Assembly: GCA_013396655.1 (NCBI GenBank)
Contig: WBMV01006433.1
Location: 409,537 to 473,536 of the forward strand
Length of the DNA: 64,000 bases
From: Campylorhamphus procurvoides
Taxonomy: Eukaryota > Chordata > Aves > Passeriformes > Dendrocolaptidae
Reading direction: 5' to 3'
Each line of letters starts with the position of its first letter. Position 1 is the first letter of the stretch. Below the pieces are notes generated by a model that was not told the DNA's origin, did no database searches, and was given only the letters and a program-made list of their open reading frames with translations. Of this stretch, positions 1 through 64,000 are shown piece after piece. Made by a program: the position numbers and the translations under genes.

Positions 1-2574
1 TGCTTAGATCTTGTCAAGGAAACAAGACTCCAAATAATAAAGATCAATGTTTCAGGCTCTCTGGATATGCGGAATTATGTGTACATCCTCATCCAGTTTA
101 TCAATACCAAAATATCTATTTGAATTTTATAAGGGCTCAATTAACTGAACAGCCACTGGAATAGATAATGTGATCTAAGCTCACAAAAATATTGCTGAAT
201 ATTTCAAGCCTTGATCCTCATGTCTATGTTGCAAGAAGGAGAAAGTGAATCCTCTTGTGCTGGTTTAAAGATAAACCCATGGGAGAAATGAACCCGACTC
301 AAGAGAGATTCCAAGTCAGAGTTACAATTTGCTAAAAAGATTACAATAAATACAATGATACAGAGAAAAAATTGCTTTTAACCCACAAAACCCAGATGTA
401 TAACTCAGCACCATGGGGCACGAACAGAATGGTGTTTGTTAGCCCCTTTGCTGAGCACCACATGGTCCTCCTGAGTACAAAGGAAAGGAAAACCTGGTGG
501 TGAGGATGATGGTCACAGTCTTGTTAAGAGTGGCAGTCACAGTCCTGCTGAGGTTCTGGCCCTCCTCTGGATCCAACGAGTGGTACCAGAAGTCCTCAAA
601 CCCCAAGATTATACATGCTCAGGTTCAGGTGGGAATTCTCAGCATGTCCCCTGTGGGGAGTTTCAAAATGGTTGATTTAACTCTATGAGTCGTGGGGTAT
701 TTTTGGAATCTTTGATGGTCTAGGTCACTGCAACTGCATATTGTGCCAGTTCCTAATGGCCCATTAGCAGACATGACCCCTGAGGCTGGGTGTGAAGGTG
801 CTGATGCCTCCCCGGAGGGGAGTTATCACAGCAGAGTCGCTGGTTTGAAGACAGAAACATTCCCATGCCTCGCAGGGTTCTTTAACACCCAGATTGTAGC
901 CTGAGGGATCAGGTGTGCTCTGGGCAGCTGCTGCAAATGATCCATTATTAATAGTCCATCAGAAATGACAGAGAGAGTGTAAAATACACAGTTTTGGTTA
1001 CACCCACACAGTGATAAACTGGTCCTGGCTGCTGTAACTAGGACACCCCTTCTTCCAAAACATGGTGCATTGACCACTGCCAAAGGCTCCATTCCTAAAC
1101 TAGAGTAACTAAGGTATGAGTCAGTCCAGCAGTTTCCATCTCCCTGTGCAATACTTCCTCAACACAGGTGTCAGGTTACTTTCCTTCATGCTCCTGCACT
1201 GTCAGGAAAACCAAGCTTGAAAGATTATCTTTATCTAACACTGACAATTACAGGGAGGAAAACAGTAAGGAAAAAGAAAAAAATAAACTTTCTAGGAAAA
1301 AAACAGGAAATTTTGAAATACACTGTGTGAAATATCTGGAAATGAAGCTGGTGTATAGTCAAGCTGCCATTAGCATTGCAATTCTCTAACAGGGCAAGAG
1401 TATATTGTAGATGTATTTAGAGAGTTACATTCCCAGCCCAAACTTCATAAAGTTACTGGTTTGGTTATAAAAATACCTTTTACTGAATCTCAGTACAATA
1501 CTTTTTCCAAGAGTTCTCCCAACGTCCAACTGTACTGAGCTCAGATGATTTTCTGAAAGCAATGTATTTTATTTGTTTAGAGACTTCAGTTCTATTTAGT
1601 ACTTTTCCAAATATTTGTTTAATCTCCCCTCAATTTCACATGAAATTCTGCCCCCACACCATCCTTTGGCAAGGAACGTCAGGAACTTACACCCACAATT
1701 TCAGGAAACAACCCCCCCCTTCTCTGTGTTTTGAACCTTGTTCTTTCATCTGATGCTTCCTTCCAAGTTCTCCTGTTGGAGGATGAACAGATGATACATA
1801 CTGACACTCTCCATGTCATTCACTCTATCAAATCTGCCCTAACCTTTATCTAACATAGTCTATTCTTTGTATAGAAGTTATTCTATGTTTCTGACTTGAT
1901 TCCCAGGGTACCCACTCCACTGCATACAATGTAGGTTAAAATGTAAAAATATAGGAAATTAAACTATATTAGACTAATTACTGTGAAAAAACTCACATCG
2001 TTTATTTCAATGTTCTTCCTTGAAAGTAGTTTTCAATAAACAACTGTACTTTTTCTCCATTAGATGTCCTAAAGGCATCTAATAAAAAAATTAGATTGGA
2101 TTTCTACATTGAAAAATGAGGGAAAATAAAGGAAAATACCCAGCCTTTGAGTCAGCCTTTGTTGGTTCAGTTTACCCATGCATTTCAAGTCAGAAGTCCT
2201 GAAACAACAAAAATCCATACACCAAACAAATTCTTTGGTTAGTCCACAGGCAGACAGTTTGTCAGGACTAAAATGATACCTTCTTTCCTTAAACTTACAG
2301 TGTAATATAATGAATGGAACTGTTGTACTTCCCTGGGGGAATCATTTGTGTGAGCTGACTGATTGAGATTTGAGGAGGGTTGCTATTATTCTGACTCGCT
2401 TAATGAAGTGTATGTGGCAGAGAACATAAGGAAATGGTGTCGGTGCCATTCCACATAAAATCAAAAAAGGTGCCCGATTTTAAACAGGGGGACCAGACAG
2501 TCCGAGTTTCAGCATCCACATGGGAACTGGAGGAAAAAAAAATTTAAAAAGGACACAAATTCCCAGAGCAGGCT
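1..2574. other. Non-coding stretch, no gene recognised
   Basis: Only short chance open frames (under 90 codons) occur here, none with a recognisable domain or good splice context. Base composition is AT-moderate, with A/T runs near 1.9-2.1 kb. By gene order this should lie between GPR19 and CDKN1B, but no CDKN1B exon is visible. Confidence 0.5.
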
Positions 2575-2985
2575 AATTAAATATTCTCTCCACCTCCTTC
2601 GCCGTATTCATTNCGCTGTCCGCGGTGCTGCGGGGACCGGCCCGCACAGCCCCGACGGGGCGGGCGCCCCTCGCAGCGGGGTCCTGGTGGAGGGGCAGCC
2701 ACATGATCCGCATCCCACATGACACAGAAAGGAACGGAGCGGCAGCCAGCCCTGCGGAACGTCATTTTTTCCTCCGCGAAAGAAGAGGGGTGGAATACCG
2801 CATCCCTCTCCCTCAAGCAGCTTTGCAAACATCCGGGCAGAGACAGCTACAGACGTGAAGACACCCCGTGGTGCCCAGCAGGACTGGGACTGTCCCAGAG
2901 GTGCCCTCACTTGGGATAGTAAGCAGAACAAGGAGGAGACCAGCGCCTCTGGGACTATGCTTTGGAGCAGGTATGTGGATGGATG
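2575..2985 (+). promoter_or_regulatory. GC-rich block, candidate GPR19 promoter and first non-coding exon
   Basis: About 300 bases are strongly GC-rich and rich in CpG, in contrast to the AT-moderate surroundings. This is what a CpG-island promoter looks like. A good 5' splice site (GGAGCAG followed by GTATGT) lies at 2970/2971 on the + strand. It could splice to the strong acceptor at 16873/16874 in front of the GPR19 coding exon, across an intron of about 14 kb (about 9 kb if the duplication upstream of GPR19 is false). GPR19 has non-coding 5' exons in mammals, which makes this plausible. The sequence gives no direct proof of transcription. The single N at 2613 means part of the block may be missing. 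Open frames here do not resemble known proteins. Confidence 0.35.
2613..2613. other. Assembly gap (single N)
   Basis: One N sits at the upstream edge of the GC-rich block, between AT-moderate sequence and a GC-rich run. A true gap of unknown length collapsed to one base is likely, because GC-rich promoters often drop out of sequencing. I see no repeated sequence across it. Confidence 0.8.
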
Positions 2986-5900
2986 GATAGGTGCTGTGCT
3001 GAACACTGCTGTAGCTAAAGGGGTAGTTCTCCCTGTGGAGACAAATAAGATGAGCTTTTCCAGTAATTTATCTTATGTATATTTACTTACACGCATTGAA
3101 GATCCTTGGGGTTTGGCAAGGAGGACTCATTCCTCAGGAGAAAATGTTCGGTGGGGTTTGAATTTTAAGATTATTCCGCTGAAAGCAGAGAGATGTGTAG
3201 AATTACTGCAGAACAACTCCCTATATTTTTTGCACAAATCTACATTCTCTATATCTATATTAATTAGTTTTCAATTATGCTACTTATTTGTCTAAAAAAA
3301 TCCCCTGACATCATCAGTTCAATGAAAACAGAAAATTACTTTTACAGCAATGGAACAGACCAACCTGCTCATCTGGTTTTTTCTGTCTCTAGATACATTC
3401 AAACAGCTTCTTCTTTCTTCTAAAACAGCTGCTTTTGTATTTTTCAGCCATTAATTTGAAATCATCCTTTTCGAAAGCATTGTCTCCCTTTTTGTGTGTG
3501 GCTGCCTGGATGCAGTACTTAGTCAAACACCACAGGCACAGCAATCTTTGCTTATCTGTAGCCAGCACAGGAAAGGGGACTATTCTGGCTCTGCTAATTC
3601 AGGCACATACTCTCTAAGAATCCATAGCCATATTTCTTATTTATCCAACTGGCTTCCAGCATGTCAAACAGTGTGTTGGCTCCACAGAGTAATGGAGAAG
3701 TAAAGCTGCCTTCTGCTTCCAAAAGGCCATTTCTGTGTATGGGGCTGGGTTCATTGCCAGTTCTTTCCGGCAATGATTTTAAAATGTGGTTCTTGAAGAT
3801 TTCTTGTTAAGATCACTGTTAATCACTTAAACGTGGCTTGGTTTGCAAAAAAACCGGTTGCCAACCCAGAGACATCCTTAAAAGTCAATCTTTATTTGGG
3901 TGTCTAAATATGGATTTTTGGAAGCTTGATTTATGAGTAAGCTTGACTTATGATTTATTTTGAGCATGCTGGCCTCAGATGAGTCAGTAAAGGGAGGAAT
4001 TTCTACACCTTAGACACATTTGGGAGGCTCCGCTCCTTATCTTAAAGTAAGAGCTTGTAAACTCCCCCACAGTTCTCCTGTGAAGCCTCTGTTTGCAAAG
4101 CTGTGCAGTGCAATTCCCCCATCTGGGTCACACCATATGATCTCCATCTGCATTTTCCTTTGCAGCCCCACGAAGCATCCTCTCTCTGGTGTTTAACAAT
4201 TTAGAGAGCAACTTCAACCAGACAATGCAGAATAAACCCCTAACATGCTCAAGTGGAGTCTGCTCGCCCTCCCCACCACAAACCTCCAGTTCAGGGGTTA
4301 TCAGCAGGCTGACACCTTGCCTCAGTGGCTTCTTCTAGGCTGCTTTTGTCCTCTCTGAGCTAGTTCAGCTGAGAAAATCCCTTCCCATAATCATCTCCAC
4401 ATCAGACATTTCCAGCTTAACTATGGGGTTTGCCTTTAGCCTCCCAGTTTCTCCAACAAAGCTAGTATAGGCAGACTATGAAATACTCTCACTAATCACC
4501 ATATTCTCTGGCAGAGGCCCATGGGAATTTTATTCTATCGCTCACTCAGGTCTCCTCCTTTTATTCCTATCTGATAAGTCCTCCTGGAAGCATCCTAAGA
4601 TCTCTGGCAGCCCTAATTATTAGCTAAAACTGCTACCCCACTCCTTGTTACTGTGTCTGGCACAGGTGACCTCTATCATGTGAGCACAGTTCCATGTTAC
4701 TGAGAAGAGTCAAGAGACATATGACAGGAACTATCACGTTCCAGAACAAATGTTTGTACCACTGCAAAAATCCTGTTGCCATACTAACTTTTTGTGGGTT
4801 AAGAAAGCAGCTTTCACAAGATTTAATATCAAGAATTCCTTTCTACATGACCTTTCCATACAAAAGCAACAACAAAACACCTTCTAAGGTTCTCCTAGGA
4901 GGAGAACTTGTGCTTGCTGATAGTGAGAGGGTGAGCTGAGCTGCTGAAGTCCTCACTATAGCAGCTGATGCATTTTCCCTGTGGGGGAGGGAACACTCAG
5001 TGGGGAGAGAGTGAGAATTTCCAAGACACAGGCAGAAAAATCAGACAAGTGTGAGATTCACCACCACTTATCTGTCAGCACTCACCATGTCAAACCAGCC
5101 CTGCTAAGCACTGTGTTCCTCACATCAAGCTGTGCTGTGGGGAAGGCCTGGTGTTGCCAAAAATTAATGCAAGCATGTGGAAGAGAGCATCTATTTTTTT
5201 ACCACTGAATCAGGAAAGGGCACAGCCTAGCCATGTCCAAGGACAAACTCAATCCCCATTACGGAGGACAAGAAGCCTCTATAGTTTTATTTCAAGCTTC
5301 TCTACACCCTTCTTGGACAATTCCAGTAGGAGAAACCTGCTCTGACAGCAGACTTGGAAATTAGGTCAGTCCCTCTTCTCCTTCTCCCACTTTTTTCATG
5401 CCCCCACAGTCACACTGGGCACAGATCTGGGTTCTGTCATTATTTTTAGACCAGTGCTAATCTGGAGTTTTGCATACTAGTCACAGCAGTAGGAAGATAC
5501 AATAAAGCTTTGAGACACTTAAACCCGTGTGTCTTTCCTTTGGGGAAGAACAGCTACATCTGTAACAGGAGACTCTTAACCATTACCTGTTTGTAAACAG
5601 TGTGTTACCCTCGTTTTGCTCATGAGGTAGGACTCAGAGAACAGTTCTCTGTGTGTTTCCTGTGATTAGCCAGACCAGGCTGTGGACAGGAACAGAGGAG
5701 ATGGAAGGAACAGGCAGTCTAAAGGTCATGGCAAACCCACAACTCTTTTGGCACAGCTTGGGTCTGTGGAAGGATGGTTGTGTCCTGCCTGGGCATTATG
5801 AATAAACCTACAGCTACTGCAGGAATAACTTCTCACTGCAAGCGACCCTGCCTATCTCTGCAGAAAGTCCTCCTCTCTACAGATCTCAGTGTTGCAAATT

Positions 5901-6430
5901 CCTTGTGTCCTTCAGCAGAGCCCTAGCTGAAGAGAGTTACGCTTGTCCCCTCGCTCTGATGAGGTGAGGGTCTCTATCTGGGTAGTATTGAGCACAAATC
6001 TAGCTCATATTTTACCACAGTCTGTCCCTGAACTAGGGCATGATGTTGGGTATAAGTGGAATCTCCAGTTACTGTAAGGGCTCCTTCTCCCTGCCAACAG
6101 AGAATAAACATCTTATGGTTTAGGTGCACGAGTAATTACTGGGTCTTAGCAACTCACATCAGGTCAATAGACCTACAGTGACTTCCTGCATGTCAGTCTT
6201 AACCCACAGTAAGCATATGAGAAAAATAATTGACTTTAGATGCAGGAAAATGCTGTTGCTTCCAGAACGTTTAAGATCCTTAAGACCTTTAATGAGCTTC
6301 AAGTGATGGTAGTGTCTATTAAGGAGACTAAGCCAATATGCAGTGACTTGTGACTTATGTATGGGTTTGAATCCTGCTTGTTCATCAAAGTTATGCCTCA
6401 TGGACTTGCCCTGAACCCAGCATTACAGGT
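2986..6430. other. Non-coding stretch, probable GPR19 5' intron or intergenic
   Basis: I see no coding exon, RNA gene or clear transposon. Open frames up to 146 codons (for example from 2855) have no recognisable features. The sequence is ordinary unique-looking AT-moderate DNA. Confidence 0.45.
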
Positions 6431-9400
6431 CTGTAGCCAGAGTAGTTACTCCAGATGTGAGCTAACAGACCCAGAAGCAATAGAGGGACCCTGTTCTTGT
6501 TCTAGTTAGTTACTGCATGTCTCACCCATTACTAAGGTAAGTTAAAAGGATGAAGCTGAAAAAGGATTCTTTCTCAAGCAGCCAGTACAAGAAATGTAAA
6601 CTGATGCCAATCCCAGCAAGTATTGCAGTATTATATCCTTGTCCTCAGTTTTAATACCTTGTTAAAATACTCAGGAAAGAACTTGAAGAGTCAATGAAGG
6701 TTGATGGCAAAGCAACTGCCCAGTTGCCCTTAATTTCCTCAAGCATACAGCAGAAAAATCTTGTTTAGATTCATGCTCATGCAGTAGCCAAATATAACAT
6801 ATATTCTCTAGATGTGTTAGAAATTAGAACATTTCCTACTTTGATTTGATTCCATCCATATTTTCTGCTCCCGTGACCTCACCCCACAACACAGGCTGGG
6901 CCATCAAATCCTGATATAAGATGTAATAACACATATTGCAACTAAGTTTATATAATCAGTGCAGGTCAGAAGCTTTCACCATTAGTTGAGCTGTGTCCAC
7001 ACCAGCCCTGAAAGCTTCATCCATGAACCCATCCACAGTCACAGTCATGTCATCTTTAGCTACCCATGCTGCAGAATAGGAATCTCCACCAGCTGGGTAA
7101 AGCTAGGGAGCAGACAGCAGGTATGGGTATGGATCTCAAAAGTTTTACTGCATTCAAAACACATTATTCTCTTGATAAAATAGGAGAAAATGTTTTTTAT
7201 CCCCATGTGCTGGAATGCAGAGAGTGAAGAAGAAGAGATTTTTGGGCTTTGCTCAGAAAAACTGCCCAGAGAAAAGTCTTCGTAAGAGGAACAGGGCAAA
7301 TAGCTGAGCATTTTTATGAGCACTGGACCAGAGAAAAGAACTGGCAGGGAAATGGTATGCTTACAAAAGCATGTGTATCCGCATTCCTTCACTGGAGCAG
7401 AAGTACTAAATGCACACAGTCATCCCTGAATAACAGGAGACAGAGATTAAAAGACTGTGCTCTTCTACAAAGGGATTTTTACACTGACACAATGCATGCA
7501 CAGGGTAGTTAATTTGAATTTAGGCAGGGATGAGTGTCACCTTGTAGCATCTTACAGCTGGACAAAAGCCATCCCTTACCCATTCTGATTCAATTTACTC
7601 ACACTTCTAATGTTGATTAAACTCAGTTAGATGGAGCAATTCTCTTCCAGTCTGGCAGATATTCCCGAGATACTCTTCAGAGAGGTAAGTTTATGGAGTA
7701 AATCGCCAGCTTAATTCTTTTGAAATAATTTGATGGGCCAATGCTTGCCTGGTGTTTTGCATCTATGATGCTGAGAAGTAAAATATATTGAATAAAAAAG
7801 GCCCTCTGCTAGTGCTAAGTCAAGTAATGTGCAATGACCAGATTCTTTAGGTGCTTTTTCAATCCTGAAAAACAGCAGTTGGGAAACAGAGAGTTTATTC
7901 TTTTAATTAATCATAAAAAAAACCAAAACAAAACAACAACATATTTATTGCATTCTTTTGTGAATCTTATTAGGTTTTGCTCTTCCAAATTGCAATGGAC
8001 ACCACATTTTTAGATAGGGCAGTAAACATGCAAACACATAATAACTATGCCATACAGGTTTTATACAACAGCAAAGTAAATGTGGCAGTGATTTTATGAA
8101 GATCTTGTGGTTCAAATATTTAATCTCTAAGTAACAGATCTGTTTTGGAGAGTTAGCTATCAACCCAAAGGGACAATCCTGAAAATGGAGTGATTTGGTT
8201 TCCAAACTGCAAATTACTGTCAGTAAAATGAAACTGTAGCACCAGAAATTCCCTCTTCGATAATTGTGAGTCATTTCACACGTCCTTTCTTTTCCCAAGC
8301 AAATGTACCTAAAATAGATTTTAAAACAAAAGTACAGAAAGTCCTTTATCAGTCTTAAAAGGATTCCCACTCTAAAACGTTTAAATGACAAAGTGAAGGA
8401 AAAGTAATACAAGCATTTTTAGTAACTCAAAGTGTAATTAGGCCTCATGTATTTGCTATATGTCATTTTTTACATTTTGTGTTTCTAAATTTCTGCTTGT
8501 TGACCTGCAAGGCAGAGGGAGATGACAGAGCCCATCACTGCTTTTTATGGATCCGATATTTGTAAGTTGAATGGCTCACTAACACTTAAAACATACTTCT
8601 GTAAACAATGCAGCAAACGGGAACACGGGAATTGAGGATAAGTAATGTAACAAGTTACAGAATCCCCAGGTATTTGCATCCTAGACCCATCCAGAGTTGT
8701 GCATGTGCTGAGCTCTCATGGTCCTATTTCTTTTTGGAACATTACATATAATCCAGAAGTTCAAGCCTCCACCATAAAAACCAGACTGGCCTACAGAAGA
8801 AAAACATATGTTGGGCCATAGATGTTAAGGTTCTTAGTGCTAAATCAGGGCATGGTTCTGATCTCAGTGCCACCTAGGGAAAAGAGGCTTGAATAGAGAT
8901 CCTGTAAGATAAAAGAAATAGCTTCTGGTCCATTTGAAGGAAAAATTATCTATGACTATACGTGCAGGGATCTCAAAGTACATTGGTTAATCAGATAGCG
9001 TTTACTTTTTTGAAAAATAAGTAATTCCTGTACAACCAGAGAAATCCTTTGCTCAAGTTAAACTCCCTATTAGCTGCATTTGTATTTTCACCTGTACCTT
9101 GTGGGCAATGTGCTGAATGACCTTGATTGTTTCCAAGGAAGAAAAAATCACAGAATACAGTATTACTTGCACATGTGTTTGTTGCCTCTTCTGTTTTACT
9201 CACAGTGACGAAATCACCACCTCCAGAGTCACATAATCAGATACTCTACCTCTCAACACAAGAACGATCTCTGGTGAAGGGTGGCACATGGGACGGCCTC
9301 TCCCGCTCATGTGTGGCTTCCTCTGCTAGCAAAACTCCAACACAAGACAGCTGGGTACATCTCTTGCTGTTCTCCTTCCCCTGTAGGCACCCACTGGTTA

Positions 9401-11382
9401 GCTCTCCATACATACCTCTGAGTGGGTCACATCCTCTTCCCTGCTGGGGCTGCTCAATTCCTGTCTTTCCAAAGGCATGAACCCAAGTTCTCCAGTAAAC
9501 AGTGGTTGGGCTGCCTTTTAGGCAAAATGCATTAGGAAACAACGCCTATTTGAGTACTACAACCCTATAACTACTTTGGGTTTTATCCACCTGCATAACT
9601 AAATGTTTCAGGTCTGAGCAGACATGGAGAGCAGATTTGGTCCACGAGGAGAAATACCATGAAAACAGTGTTAGTGAGTCTGCATATTTTAACAGCTTAG
9701 GAAGGTCATTGCATTCTTGTAACAGACTTCCAGTATTCTTCACTACTGGGCAAGAAATTTTATCTGGTCATTCTCCTATGAAACTTCATTTGTACAGCTG
9801 GCTATTTTTAAATGACACATACTTCTGCAAGGCAAGAAGGGAAATTAAGGAAGAAAATTAGCTCATAATGTTCTTTTCTTTCTAGTTAATAGGCTCCACA
9901 TGTATTATTCTATTACAGATAATTCTAACACATAATTTGTTGTACTGTCAATGTATTCTGCCACTCTGGCAGAGGCAGCAGCCCAAACACCCTGCCAACA
10001 GCTGATGACAGCACGATATCTCCAGGGGAGCAGATCCACCCTACAGAGAGCGGGGAAAGACAAGTAGGAGCCCTTTGAGAAATCAGGAATCATCTGCCAG
10101 AGGCAAACCCAGTAAGAAAACAGTGAGGGAAGGCAATTAAGGGTGAGAGGGAAGGTAAGGCCAGGCTGGGCAGTACCCACCTCCTGCAGCAGAGGGGACA
10201 AGGGCCAAAGTATGATCTGTTGACAGAGCCCCTTGCAGGCAGCTGACAACTCAACCACCATGACATTCGCTTCTCAGTCTCACTACTGATGTTCCCAAGT
10301 GTTATTCTGGCACAAGGGTGCCACGCAAATATTCTTTGTTTAACCAGTCCCACTGAAACAAACCCAGTTGTTACTGGCCTCCAACTGTTTCAGCCACAAG
10401 TCCAGGTTCACCTGAAGAGTATTCTCAGATCCCAGACTGCCCACATGCAAAAGCTGCTCAGTAAGCCCGGCTACTGTGGGAGCAGCGCTGGTGACTCATG
10501 CATTGACCCACTTTAGGATGATGCAGAGTCAGCGACTGGGCACAGAGTGAGGAGAGCACAGAGAGGTCCCAGCTGCAGCTGTGCAGACTGGCCATGTCTG
10601 TGCAGCTGTGCTGTGCTGCTCTCAAACACACTCTGCATTTTCAAGCACATTAAATTTATGGCCATGCTGTGCAGCTGATTGTATCTCATGACTGTTCATG
10701 TGAAACAAACAATGTCATATTCGTGCAGCTAATAATTACAGTCTAAAAAGGTAGAGGAGAAAAGTCTCCTATAACCACAGCAAGAAATTAATACATCTAT
10801 TTCTCTTCCACATCTGATTGGTTTTTTTGGCACTGCATTACTGAAAACACATGCAAAACAGTGTTTCTAATGAGCAAAAGGTTTTGCACACCAAGATAAT
10901 AACTGAAAGGACATCAGACTGCAGCAAGCTGTTCATATGCATGTAGTCACTAAAATTAGCTATTTTCCCTGTTTTATCCTCGCAATAGGCTAAGACCAAC
11001 CCAACCATCCAGCTAAATTCAAGATTGGAAACTGACAATATGTGCATTCTTTTCTCTTGCTCCTCAAAACAGAAGGTCATACCTCTCATATTCTGTGGTG
11101 TGTCTGTCATGAAGGTACAGGAAAATAATTTCACACAGATAACACACTCAGACAAACTTTAATTCGCAAGCAATGACAGGTTGACAGGTTATAGGTTTGG
11201 TGTTACCAGTTGGGGATATTGCTACTCCACAGACAAAGAACAATGACCCAAACTGTACCCGTGCTCATAAACATGTTGAAGGCCTGTCCTTCTTCTGGGG
11301 GAGGGGGTGGTCGTGCTAGTAGTGAGGGAACTCAGTCCTTGGAAGTCTCCTTGGACAGCATCCCAACCCCAAGGGAAGGGCT
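6431..11382. repeat. 4,952-bp segment, copy 1 of a head-to-tail pair
   Basis: This segment matches 11384-16335 base for base at a constant offset of 4,953. By eye I find eight single-base differences (6601, 7468, 7497, 7498, 7544, 7549, 7905 and 9448 in this copy) and no length difference. The copy ends exactly at the N at 11383, where the text breaks off mid-sequence and restarts at the beginning of the unit. No gene is recognised inside; the short open frames recur in both copies simply because the DNA does. The end of one contig and the start of the next most likely represent the same locus or two haplotypes of it. Confidence 0.97.
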
Positions 11383-11383
11383 N
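11383..11383. other. Assembly gap (single N) at the junction of the two copies
   Basis: The N separates the last base of copy 1 from the first base of copy 2. A gap placed exactly at a duplication boundary points to a scaffold join of overlapping contigs and not to missing sequence. Confidence 0.95.
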
Positions 11384-14300
11384 CTGTAGCCAGAGTAGTT
11401 ACTCCAGATGTGAGCTAACAGACCCAGAAGCAATAGAGGGACCCTGTTCTTGTTCTAGTTAGTTACTGCATGTCTCACCCATTACTAAGGTAAGTTAAAA
11501 GGATGAAGCTGAAAAAGGATTCTTTCTCAAGCAGCCAGTACAAGAAATGTAAATTGATGCCAATCCCAGCAAGTATTGCAGTATTATATCCTTGTCCTCA
11601 GTTTTAATACCTTGTTAAAATACTCAGGAAAGAACTTGAAGAGTCAATGAAGGTTGATGGCAAAGCAACTGCCCAGTTGCCCTTAATTTCCTCAAGCATA
11701 CAGCAGAAAAATCTTGTTTAGATTCATGCTCATGCAGTAGCCAAATATAACATATATTCTCTAGATGTGTTAGAAATTAGAACATTTCCTACTTTGATTT
11801 GATTCCATCCATATTTTCTGCTCCCGTGACCTCACCCCACAACACAGGCTGGGCCATCAAATCCTGATATAAGATGTAATAACACATATTGCAACTAAGT
11901 TTATATAATCAGTGCAGGTCAGAAGCTTTCACCATTAGTTGAGCTGTGTCCACACCAGCCCTGAAAGCTTCATCCATGAACCCATCCACAGTCACAGTCA
12001 TGTCATCTTTAGCTACCCATGCTGCAGAATAGGAATCTCCACCAGCTGGGTAAAGCTAGGGAGCAGACAGCAGGTATGGGTATGGATCTCAAAAGTTTTA
12101 CTGCATTCAAAACACATTATTCTCTTGATAAAATAGGAGAAAATGTTTTTTATCCCCATGTGCTGGAATGCAGAGAGTGAAGAAGAAGAGATTTTTGGGC
12201 TTTGCTCAGAAAAACTGCCCAGAGAAAAGTCTTCGTAAGAGGAACAGGGCAAATAGCTGAGCATTTTTATGAGCACTGGACCAGAGAAAAGAACTGGCAG
12301 GGAAATGGTATGCTTACAAAAGCATGTGTATCCGCATTCCTTCACTGGAGCAGAAGTACTAAATGCACACAGTCATCCCTGAATAACAGGAGACAGAGAT
12401 TAAAAGACTGTGCTCTTCTATAAAGGGATTTTTACACTGACACAATGCACACACAGGGTAGTTAATTTGAATTTAGGCAGGGATGAGTGTCACCTTCTAG
12501 CGTCTTACAGCTGGACAAAAGCCATCCCTTACCCATTCTGATTCAATTTACTCACACTTCTAATGTTGATTAAACTCAGTTAGATGGAGCAATTCTCTTC
12601 CAGTCTGGCAGATATTCCCGAGATACTCTTCAGAGAGGTAAGTTTATGGAGTAAATCGCCAGCTTAATTCTTTTGAAATAATTTGATGGGCCAATGCTTG
12701 CCTGGTGTTTTGCATCTATGATGCTGAGAAGTAAAATATATTGAATAAAAAAGGCCCTCTGCTAGTGCTAAGTCAAGTAATGTGCAATGACCAGATTCTT
12801 TAGGTGCTTTTTCAATCCTGAAAAACAGCAGTTGGGAAACAGAGAGTTTATTCTTTTGATTAATCATAAAAAAAACCAAAACAAAACAACAACATATTTA
12901 TTGCATTCTTTTGTGAATCTTATTAGGTTTTGCTCTTCCAAATTGCAATGGACACCACATTTTTAGATAGGGCAGTAAACATGCAAACACATAATAACTA
13001 TGCCATACAGGTTTTATACAACAGCAAAGTAAATGTGGCAGTGATTTTATGAAGATCTTGTGGTTCAAATATTTAATCTCTAAGTAACAGATCTGTTTTG
13101 GAGAGTTAGCTATCAACCCAAAGGGACAATCCTGAAAATGGAGTGATTTGGTTTCCAAACTGCAAATTACTGTCAGTAAAATGAAACTGTAGCACCAGAA
13201 ATTCCCTCTTCGATAATTGTGAGTCATTTCACACGTCCTTTCTTTTCCCAAGCAAATGTACCTAAAATAGATTTTAAAACAAAAGTACAGAAAGTCCTTT
13301 ATCAGTCTTAAAAGGATTCCCACTCTAAAACGTTTAAATGACAAAGTGAAGGAAAAGTAATACAAGCATTTTTAGTAACTCAAAGTGTAATTAGGCCTCA
13401 TGTATTTGCTATATGTCATTTTTTACATTTTGTGTTTCTAAATTTCTGCTTGTTGACCTGCAAGGCAGAGGGAGATGACAGAGCCCATCACTGCTTTTTA
13501 TGGATCCGATATTTGTAAGTTGAATGGCTCACTAACACTTAAAACATACTTCTGTAAACAATGCAGCAAACGGGAACACGGGAATTGAGGATAAGTAATG
13601 TAACAAGTTACAGAATCCCCAGGTATTTGCATCCTAGACCCATCCAGAGTTGTGCATGTGCTGAGCTCTCATGGTCCTATTTCTTTTTGGAACATTACAT
13701 ATAATCCAGAAGTTCAAGCCTCCACCATAAAAACCAGACTGGCCTACAGAAGAAAAACATATGTTGGGCCATAGATGTTAAGGTTCTTAGTGCTAAATCA
13801 GGGCATGGTTCTGATCTCAGTGCCACCTAGGGAAAAGAGGCTTGAATAGAGATCCTGTAAGATAAAAGAAATAGCTTCTGGTCCATTTGAAGGAAAAATT
13901 ATCTATGACTATACGTGCAGGGATCTCAAAGTACATTGGTTAATCAGATAGCGTTTACTTTTTTGAAAAATAAGTAATTCCTGTACAACCAGAGAAATCC
14001 TTTGCTCAAGTTAAACTCCCTATTAGCTGCATTTGTATTTTCACCTGTACCTTGTGGGCAATGTGCTGAATGACCTTGATTGTTTCCAAGGAAGAAAAAA
14101 TCACAGAATACAGTATTACTTGCACATGTGTTTGTTGCCTCTTCTGTTTTACTCACAGTGACGAAATCACCACCTCCAGAGTCACATAATCAGATACTCT
14201 ACCTCTCAACACAAGAACGATCTCTGGTGAAGGGTGGCACATGGGACGGCCTCTCCCGCTCATGTGTGGCTTCCTCTGCTAGCAAAACTCCAACACAAGA

Positions 14301-16335
14301 CAGCTGGGTACATCTCTTGCTGTTCTCCTTCCCCTGTAGGCACCCACTGGTTAGCTCTCCATACATACCTCTGAGTGGGTCACATCCTCTTCCCTGCTGG
14401 AGCTGCTCAATTCCTGTCTTTCCAAAGGCATGAACCCAAGTTCTCCAGTAAACAGTGGTTGGGCTGCCTTTTAGGCAAAATGCATTAGGAAACAACGCCT
14501 ATTTGAGTACTACAACCCTATAACTACTTTGGGTTTTATCCACCTGCATAACTAAATGTTTCAGGTCTGAGCAGACATGGAGAGCAGATTTGGTCCACGA
14601 GGAGAAATACCATGAAAACAGTGTTAGTGAGTCTGCATATTTTAACAGCTTAGGAAGGTCATTGCATTCTTGTAACAGACTTCCAGTATTCTTCACTACT
14701 GGGCAAGAAATTTTATCTGGTCATTCTCCTATGAAACTTCATTTGTACAGCTGGCTATTTTTAAATGACACATACTTCTGCAAGGCAAGAAGGGAAATTA
14801 AGGAAGAAAATTAGCTCATAATGTTCTTTTCTTTCTAGTTAATAGGCTCCACATGTATTATTCTATTACAGATAATTCTAACACATAATTTGTTGTACTG
14901 TCAATGTATTCTGCCACTCTGGCAGAGGCAGCAGCCCAAACACCCTGCCAACAGCTGATGACAGCACGATATCTCCAGGGGAGCAGATCCACCCTACAGA
15001 GAGCGGGGAAAGACAAGTAGGAGCCCTTTGAGAAATCAGGAATCATCTGCCAGAGGCAAACCCAGTAAGAAAACAGTGAGGGAAGGCAATTAAGGGTGAG
15101 AGGGAAGGTAAGGCCAGGCTGGGCAGTACCCACCTCCTGCAGCAGAGGGGACAAGGGCCAAAGTATGATCTGTTGACAGAGCCCCTTGCAGGCAGCTGAC
15201 AACTCAACCACCATGACATTCGCTTCTCAGTCTCACTACTGATGTTCCCAAGTGTTATTCTGGCACAAGGGTGCCACGCAAATATTCTTTGTTTAACCAG
15301 TCCCACTGAAACAAACCCAGTTGTTACTGGCCTCCAACTGTTTCAGCCACAAGTCCAGGTTCACCTGAAGAGTATTCTCAGATCCCAGACTGCCCACATG
15401 CAAAAGCTGCTCAGTAAGCCCGGCTACTGTGGGAGCAGCGCTGGTGACTCATGCATTGACCCACTTTAGGATGATGCAGAGTCAGCGACTGGGCACAGAG
15501 TGAGGAGAGCACAGAGAGGTCCCAGCTGCAGCTGTGCAGACTGGCCATGTCTGTGCAGCTGTGCTGTGCTGCTCTCAAACACACTCTGCATTTTCAAGCA
15601 CATTAAATTTATGGCCATGCTGTGCAGCTGATTGTATCTCATGACTGTTCATGTGAAACAAACAATGTCATATTCGTGCAGCTAATAATTACAGTCTAAA
15701 AAGGTAGAGGAGAAAAGTCTCCTATAACCACAGCAAGAAATTAATACATCTATTTCTCTTCCACATCTGATTGGTTTTTTTGGCACTGCATTACTGAAAA
15801 CACATGCAAAACAGTGTTTCTAATGAGCAAAAGGTTTTGCACACCAAGATAATAACTGAAAGGACATCAGACTGCAGCAAGCTGTTCATATGCATGTAGT
15901 CACTAAAATTAGCTATTTTCCCTGTTTTATCCTCGCAATAGGCTAAGACCAACCCAACCATCCAGCTAAATTCAAGATTGGAAACTGACAATATGTGCAT
16001 TCTTTTCTCTTGCTCCTCAAAACAGAAGGTCATACCTCTCATATTCTGTGGTGTGTCTGTCATGAAGGTACAGGAAAATAATTTCACACAGATAACACAC
16101 TCAGACAAACTTTAATTCGCAAGCAATGACAGGTTGACAGGTTATAGGTTTGGTGTTACCAGTTGGGGATATTGCTACTCCACAGACAAAGAACAATGAC
16201 CCAAACTGTACCCGTGCTCATAAACATGTTGAAGGCCTGTCCTTCTTCTGGGGGAGGGGGTGGTCGTGCTAGTAGTGAGGGAACTCAGTCCTTGGAAGTC
16301 TCCTTGGACAGCATCCCAACCCCAAGGGAAGGGCT
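11384..16335. repeat. 4,952-bp segment, copy 2 of a head-to-tail pair
   Basis: This is the second copy of 6431-11382, with the same ends and the same internal open frames. After 16335 the sequence runs on without a break into unique DNA leading to GPR19. Copy 1 is likewise continuous on its left with unique DNA before 6431. Each copy is therefore anchored to unique sequence on one side only, as expected for overlapping contig ends. Confidence 0.97.
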
Positions 16336-16908: not shown

Positions 16909-18135
16909 ATGGATAACAGCAGCAATCCTTTTCTTCTCCCTACCTTACTGATCCTGCTGCAGAACACGAGCAACCCCGAAAACTCGATCCCTCCTGCTGG
17001 CTATGAGATTACAGAAGCTCCACCTCCAGGACTCAGCTCAAGCAGGACTCTCTTAGACTATGGACTGACGCCGGGGGAAATTGCAGTAGCCAGCGTGGTT
17101 TGGGGAGTGTTGTGGCTGGTTTCCATCCTGGGAAACTTCCTTGTTTGCTTAGTCATCCATAGAAGCAGAAGGACACAATCCACCACCAACTATTTTGTGG
17201 TCTCCATGGCTTGTGCAGACCTGCTCAGCACTGTTGTGAGTGCGCCCTTCTGGCTTCTTCAGTTGACCTATGGCAGGTGGATCCTGGGGAACGGGATGTG
17301 CAAGCTGGTAAGGTACATACAGTACCTCACCCCAGGAGTCCAGATCTACGTGCTCTTCTCCATAGGTGTGGATCGATTCTACACTATTGTCTATCCCCTG
17401 AGCTTCAAAGTATCCAGAGAGAAAGCCAAGAAAATGATTCTGGCCTCTTGGCTCTGTGGTGCTCTGTTTGCATCACCAGCTTGTTTTCTCTATGGCTCCA
17501 ACAGCGACCACCACTGCAACTTTTTTCTCCCTAATTTTTGGCAAGGAGCTGTCTACAGTATCATCCACCTCTTGGTGGTGTTTTTGATCCCATCCCTCCT
17601 CATTATCCTCTTTTACAAAAAAGTCATTAAGTACATTTGGAGAATAGGCACAGATGGAATGACTGTCAGGAGGACAACAAATATTGTCCCAAGAACAAAA
17701 GTGAAAACCATCAAGATGTTCTTAATGTTAAACTTGATGTTTCTCCTGTCCTGTCTCCCTTTCTACATGGTACAGCTGTGGCATCCACAGGAAACAGACT
17801 ACAGAAAGAGCTCCTTGGTTTTCCTGGCTGTCACCTGGATCTCTTTCAGTTCCTCAGCCTCTAAGCCAACCCTTTACTCCATCTTTAACGCAAACTTCAG
17901 AAGGGGGATGAAAGAAACTTTTTGCATGTCTGCCATGAAATGCTACAGAAGCAATGCATACACCATCACCACCAGTTCCAGGATAGCAAAAAAAAATCAT
18001 GTTGGTATTGCAGATATTCCAGCTACAGCCAAAAGTGTCACCAAAGACTCCACCTATGATGCTTTTAACCGAGAAGCCAAGGAAAGAAAGCTTGCCTGGC
18101 CTATTCCAGCCAATCCTCCAAATACGTTTGTCTAG
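16909..18135 (+). CDS. GPR19: G-protein coupled receptor 19 (orphan class A GPCR), complete
   Basis: The protein is a 408-residue plasma-membrane receptor of the rhodopsin class, recognised by close similarity to mammalian GPR19 (about 415 residues). It includes the very conserved stretches HRSRRTQSTTNYFVVSMAC and TPGVQIYVL and the C-terminus NPPNTFV. N-glycosylation sequons lie at N3 and N19. TM1 carries N76, TM2 D104. TM3 starts near C131, which should pair with C203 in loop 2. The DRY box is D155-R156-F157. TM7 has KPTLY (319-323) instead of NPxxY, as in mammalian GPR19 from memory. The TM6 toggle position is Cys282 (SCLP), where mammals have Trp. The C-terminal TFV is a possible class I PDZ ligand. 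The ATG at 16909 is chosen; the frame is open upstream to a GTG at 16888, but no in-frame ATG precedes it in the exon. The coding sequence is intronless and intact. The ligand is unsettled. Convergent with CREBL2. Confidence 0.97.
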   Translation: MDNSSNPFLLPTLLILLQNTSNPENSIPPAGYEITEAPPPGLSSSRTLLDYGLTPGEIAVASVVWGVLWLVSILGNFLVCLVIHRSRRTQSTTNYFVVSMACADLLSTVVSAPFWLLQLTYGRWILGNGMCKLVRYIQYLTPGVQIYVLFSIGVDRFYTIVYPLSFKVSREKAKKMILASWLCGALFASPACFLYGSNSDHHCNFFLPNFWQGAVYSIIHLLVVFLIPSLLIILFYKKVIKYIWRIGTDGMTVRRTTNIVPRTKVKTIKMFLMLNLMFLLSCLPFYMVQLWHPQETDYRKSSLVFLAVTWISFSSSASKPTLYSIFNANFRRGMKETFCMSAMKCYRSNAYTITTSSRIAKKNHVGIADIPATAKSVTKDSTYDAFNREAKERKLAWPIPANPPNTFV

Positions 18136-63636: not shown

Positions 63637-64000
63637 TGCCCTTGGCCCCGGCCCCGGCCCCGGAGCGGATCCCCCGCACAGGACGGGGCGCTGGAGCGGC
63701 GGGGCCGCCACAGGTGGTAAGACGGGGGTGCGAGGGAGGGGACACGGACACAGACACAGACCCTGCTGCCCTCCCCGCTGCCCTCCCTGCTCCCCGTCCC
63801 TCCTTCCCACCTCCCGACATCCACCTGCCCGTCCCGCTGGGAGGAGGGACCCGGCGGGCCGGACTGGGGGTGAGCGGGGATCGGCCCGAGCGCCGGGGCT
63901 GGGGGTGCTCGGGGTGCCCCAGAGCCCCAAGGGCTCCTGCAGAGCTCCGAAGTTCTGCCTTGGGCTCGCAGAACGCCGAAATTCGAGGCAGCTGACAAAA

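Follow-up and report, generated by a model that had tools for sequence, protein, structure and literature searches.

The window, by which we mean the whole stretch of 64,000 nucleotides that was analysed (C1754:409537-473536, C1754 being the scaffold), carries a direct repeat of 4952 bp upstream of GPR19. This repeat is very probably a single genomic stretch printed twice, with two overlapping contigs laid end to end and left unmerged. Its parts are arranged as follows:

Window 6431..11382, no strand: copy 1, 4952 bp, read as the right-hand end of the left contig.
Window 11383, no strand: lone N, read as a contig join with an unmerged (negative) gap.
Window 11384..16335, no strand: copy 2, 4952 bp, read as the left-hand end of the right contig.

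In the proposed course of events, two contigs of the draft assembly would overlap by 4952 bp, and the scaffolder would have placed them in the correct order and orientation without merging the overlap. A single N would then have been written between them, so that the same stretch appears twice; the lone N probably stands for a negative gap.

Comparing the copies position by position, we found 4944 of 4952 positions equal (99.84% identity), with 8 substitutions and 0 indels. The first-pass annotation, working by eye, had likewise reported eight base differences and copies of equal length, and both statements hold. The differences, given as copy 1/copy 2 in copy 1 coordinates, are:

6601 C/T, 7468 C/T, 7497 T/C, 7498 G/A
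7544 G/C, 7549 A/G, 7905 A/G, 9448 G/A

The register of the repeat is unambiguous: across offsets 4940-4964, only 4953 yields identity (4892 of 4900 positions), the others giving 1258 to 1402. Leftward of 6431, identity drops to background, position 6430 facing the N at 11383 in the same register; rightward, the repeat necessarily ends where copy 1 meets that N. Zero unmatched bases separate the identity from the N on either side, and the copies do meet exactly there, between 11382 and 11384. Continuity with unique sequence is also as the annotation had described it, on the left only for copy 1 and on the right only for copy 2. The BLAST alignment of the copies over the whole stretch has 4955 columns, 3 of them extra and running through the N, which we take as chance. 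Tandem Repeats Finder was limited to periods of up to 500, and a repeat of 4952 bp is therefore outside its reach.

The first-pass annotation had also reasoned that a real duplication would not be expected to have its junction fall on an assembly gap. The N is indeed at 11383, but the argument is not watertight on its own, because graph assemblers can break contigs at the edges of true repeats too. This leaves room for a different account, in which 4952 bp were truly duplicated in tandem not long ago, possibly as a polymorphism, with the contigs broken exactly at the repeat edge and the junction left unassembled because the assembler did not bridge it. Two near-identical copies in tandem, at a divergence of 0.16%, are compatible with such a recent event upstream of GPR19, which we nonetheless regard as highly improbable. 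The copy-to-copy junction is absent as continuous sequence, the junction base itself being N, and a true duplication should occur away from gaps as well.

We examined how such repeats are distributed along 324 kb of this one scaffold (C1754 309537 to 633536), window included. This sequence has 18 N runs, of which 14 are single Ns and the other four are 835, 1774, 1866 and 9068 long. The 9068-N run, at the edge of the 324 kb and without a left flank, was left out, giving 17 N runs, among which that at 320674 has a left flank of only 2069 bases, up to the 9068-N run. A direct repeat abuts the N run on both sides with zero slack at 5 of the 17, including 4 of the 14 lone Ns:

C1754 420919 (window 11383), lone N: two-ended overlap of 4952 bp, 8 mismatches.
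C1754 473537, run of 1774 N: two-ended overlap of 125 bp, 0 mismatches, 100% identical.
C1754 566671, lone N: two-ended overlap of 222 bp, 0 mismatches, 100% identical.
C1754 580123, lone N: two-ended overlap of 435 columns, one gap.
C1754 600993, lone N: two-ended overlap of 250 bp, 4 mismatches.

Self-BLAST of the 324 kb (word size 20, E-value cut-off 1e-10), with direct repeats kept from 80 bp and 90% identity upwards, returned five repeats (125, 222, 250, 435 and 4952 bp), every one at an N run, and none of that length and identity away from N runs. Since all five lie at N runs, contig ends that overlap have evidently stayed unmerged in this assembly, in most cases with a single N between them. 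The long near-identical repeats of this scaffold sit at contig joins, which is the mark of unmerged overlaps and not of duplication. That the other four also lie at N runs, with none of at least 80 bp elsewhere, argues against a true duplication at the fifth.

Using exact 20-mers, we scored each position by searching for the first 20 bases on its right in the 10 kb to the left, and for the last 20 bases on its left in the 10 kb to the right; a position passed when both distances agreed within 5 bp and were at least 80. An exhaustive count found 4 of 17 N runs passing versus 0 of 299,512 non-N positions; 600993 misses at one end owing to a mismatch. This count supersedes two random controls. 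In one, 0 of 5000 cut points passed on 294 kb. In the other, run on 324 kb without the 80-bp condition, 8 of 20,000 positions passed. Each of the 8 lies in one of two short tandem arrays, around C1754 603480-603557 and around 604346-604351, and the distances at its two ends are either 51 bp or disagree with each other, which leaves it below the 80-bp criterion. The annotation's interpretation of the repeat as an unmerged contig overlap is thus supported, the same zero-slack geometry recurring at other N runs and at none of the non-N positions counted.

A lone N is not by itself proof of an overlap, because 11 of the 17 N runs have no flanking repeat by self-BLAST of the 324 kb and one more, the lone N at C1754 625497, is one-sided: there the left end recurs 205 bp into the right contig, over 69 bp at 100% identity. 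No flanking repeat was found at the lone Ns at window 2613 and 62856. The window closes with 125 bp (63876-64000) that recur exactly at C1754:475311-475435, past 1774 Ns that start at the window's end; this is another unmerged overlap, with a sized gap. The overlap upstream of GPR19 is more than 10 times as long as the next longest (435 columns), which we count against the unmerged overlap.

A search of the bird's own genome with the repeat, covering 1,019,375,700 bases in 2666 sequences, gave four short matches elsewhere, the longest covering 86 query bases and none above 94% identity. The lack of a third copy in that search speaks against a true duplication, if weakly, as the window's own copies are also unlisted there.

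If the repeat is an unmerged overlap, its 8 substitutions point to a different allele on each contig. The bird would then be heterozygous here, with both of its alleles represented, and this may explain why merging failed. An overlap of this heterotype kind is the likeliest reading of the differences, and the "contig overlap" and "two haplotypes" proposed for this repeat are compatible, not competing, readings. The differences make up 0.16% of a copy, and 7 of the 8 are transitions, with none an indel. Six of them are confined to 438 bp (permutation P 0.0006), and no difference occurs over the final 1934 bp of the copies (permutation P 0.018); both tests were picked once the data had been seen. 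The first 170 bp are likewise free of differences. With 1934 bp the same in both copies, collapse into one sequence would be the normal outcome in a short-read graph assembler, and this, too, counts against an unmerged overlap. At the adjacent differences 7497-7498 and 12450-12451, copy 1 has TG and copy 2 has CA, a pair that would be expected if an original CG had decayed on one strand in one lineage and on the other strand in another.

The contigs could instead come from the same haplotype, with the 8 differences being consensus errors (a homotype false duplication). Unmerged ends do arise without allelic difference, as seen from the overlaps of 125 and 222 bp, whose copies match at every base, and the uneven placement of the differences fits errors as well. 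SNP density between haplotypes is usually uneven, too. Against consensus errors, transitions account for all but one of the differences, and indels are absent. Moreover, errors of contig ends are expected to cluster at those ends, precisely where the copies are clean. We therefore consider a same-haplotype overlap unlikely, and keep to two contigs carrying different alleles as the preferred reading.

Similar artefacts have been described in other assemblies. Kelley and Salzberg 2010 (PMC2864568) define duplicated overlapping contigs (DOC) as two adjacent contigs whose alignment is confined to the ends facing each other, with candidates, in the passages of that source relied on here, exceeding 300 bp and 95% identity and lying less than 300 bp from both contig ends. 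The alignment reported here extends over 4952 bp at 99.84%, 0 bp from both ends. As for separate, adjacent contigs, a lone N stands between the copies, and its status as a contig join is suggested by the other N runs. The DOC calls of PMC2864568, in the same passages, also need mate-pair consistency, whereas our comparison is by sequence alone. With that qualification, the pattern is that of the known "duplicated overlapping contigs" artefact as those passages present it.

In the relevant part of PMC9516828, gaps between copies on one scaffold are among the characteristics of false duplications. The near-identical adjacent copies and the gap of its heterotype class have their counterpart here in the two copies and the N at 11383, although the classes of that source, as given there, rest on read depth and heterozygous k-mers and ours on the nucleotide sequence only. 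According to a statement in PMC5368935, ALLPATHS-LG assigns a negative gap size where contigs overlap. A lone N in ALLPATHS-LG scaffolds was read as indicating misassembly once PCR had failed (PMC6907397, in the portion concerned), and single N insertions were called construction anomalies (PMC5902842, likewise). The single-N mark is common to those joins and to the present case, and it is treated there as suspect. In contrast to our case, the portions of PMC6907397 and PMC5902842 dealing with these joins describe no flanking repeats, and ALLPATHS-LG may not be the assembler of this genome.

The gene next to the repeat is downstream of the duplicated stretch and outside it, and a CpG-rich stretch lies on the other side:

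Window 2451..2900, no strand: CpG-rich stretch, GC up to 0.64, CpG observed/expected up to 0.92.
Window 16909..18135, + strand: intact GPR19 coding frame, ATG at 16909, stop ending at 18135, 408 aa.

The frame matches Pfam 7tm_1 (E 1.3e-42), and the named best matches are bird GPR19, in line with the gene name that it had been given. Among the matches listed (the best 120 of 538, from a database clustered at 90%), the closest GPR19 is that of Sclerurus (94% over 89% of the query), and next, within the same best 120 of 538, come Scytalopus (93% over 89%) and Pipra (92% over 100%). These three we take to be suboscine passerines, and on these matches the GPR19 of the window resembles that of suboscine birds. 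CDKN1B is expected beside GPR19 in vertebrate synteny. Within the copies, an open frame of 157 aa (7945-8418, minus strand) has no Pfam match and is taken as chance; in the window as a whole, Rfam gave nothing at gathering score.

Judging from its composition, the CpG-rich stretch is possibly what the first-pass annotation called the candidate promoter. A lone N at 2613 lies inside it, with AT-rich sequence to the left and GC-rich sequence to the right, and sequence of the candidate promoter may be missing at this point. From the end of the CpG-rich stretch to the GPR19 start codon at 16909, the printed distance is 14.0 kb, and 9.1 kb after subtraction of one copy and the N. The annotation's estimate that this distance is overstated by about 5 kb is therefore accurate, the excess being 4953 bp, if the repeat is an unmerged overlap.

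These findings indicate that the apparent duplication is almost certainly not a real feature of the genome, and we present it as a cautionary case, not as a discovery. In work on this scaffold, an error of about 5 kb would enter counts of segmental duplications, promoter-gene distances and alignments of the region upstream of GPR19; four further two-ended overlaps lie on the same scaffold. Moreover, the 8 sites at which the copies differ are probably heterozygous SNPs of this bird, which would tend to be missed by read mapping to this reference.
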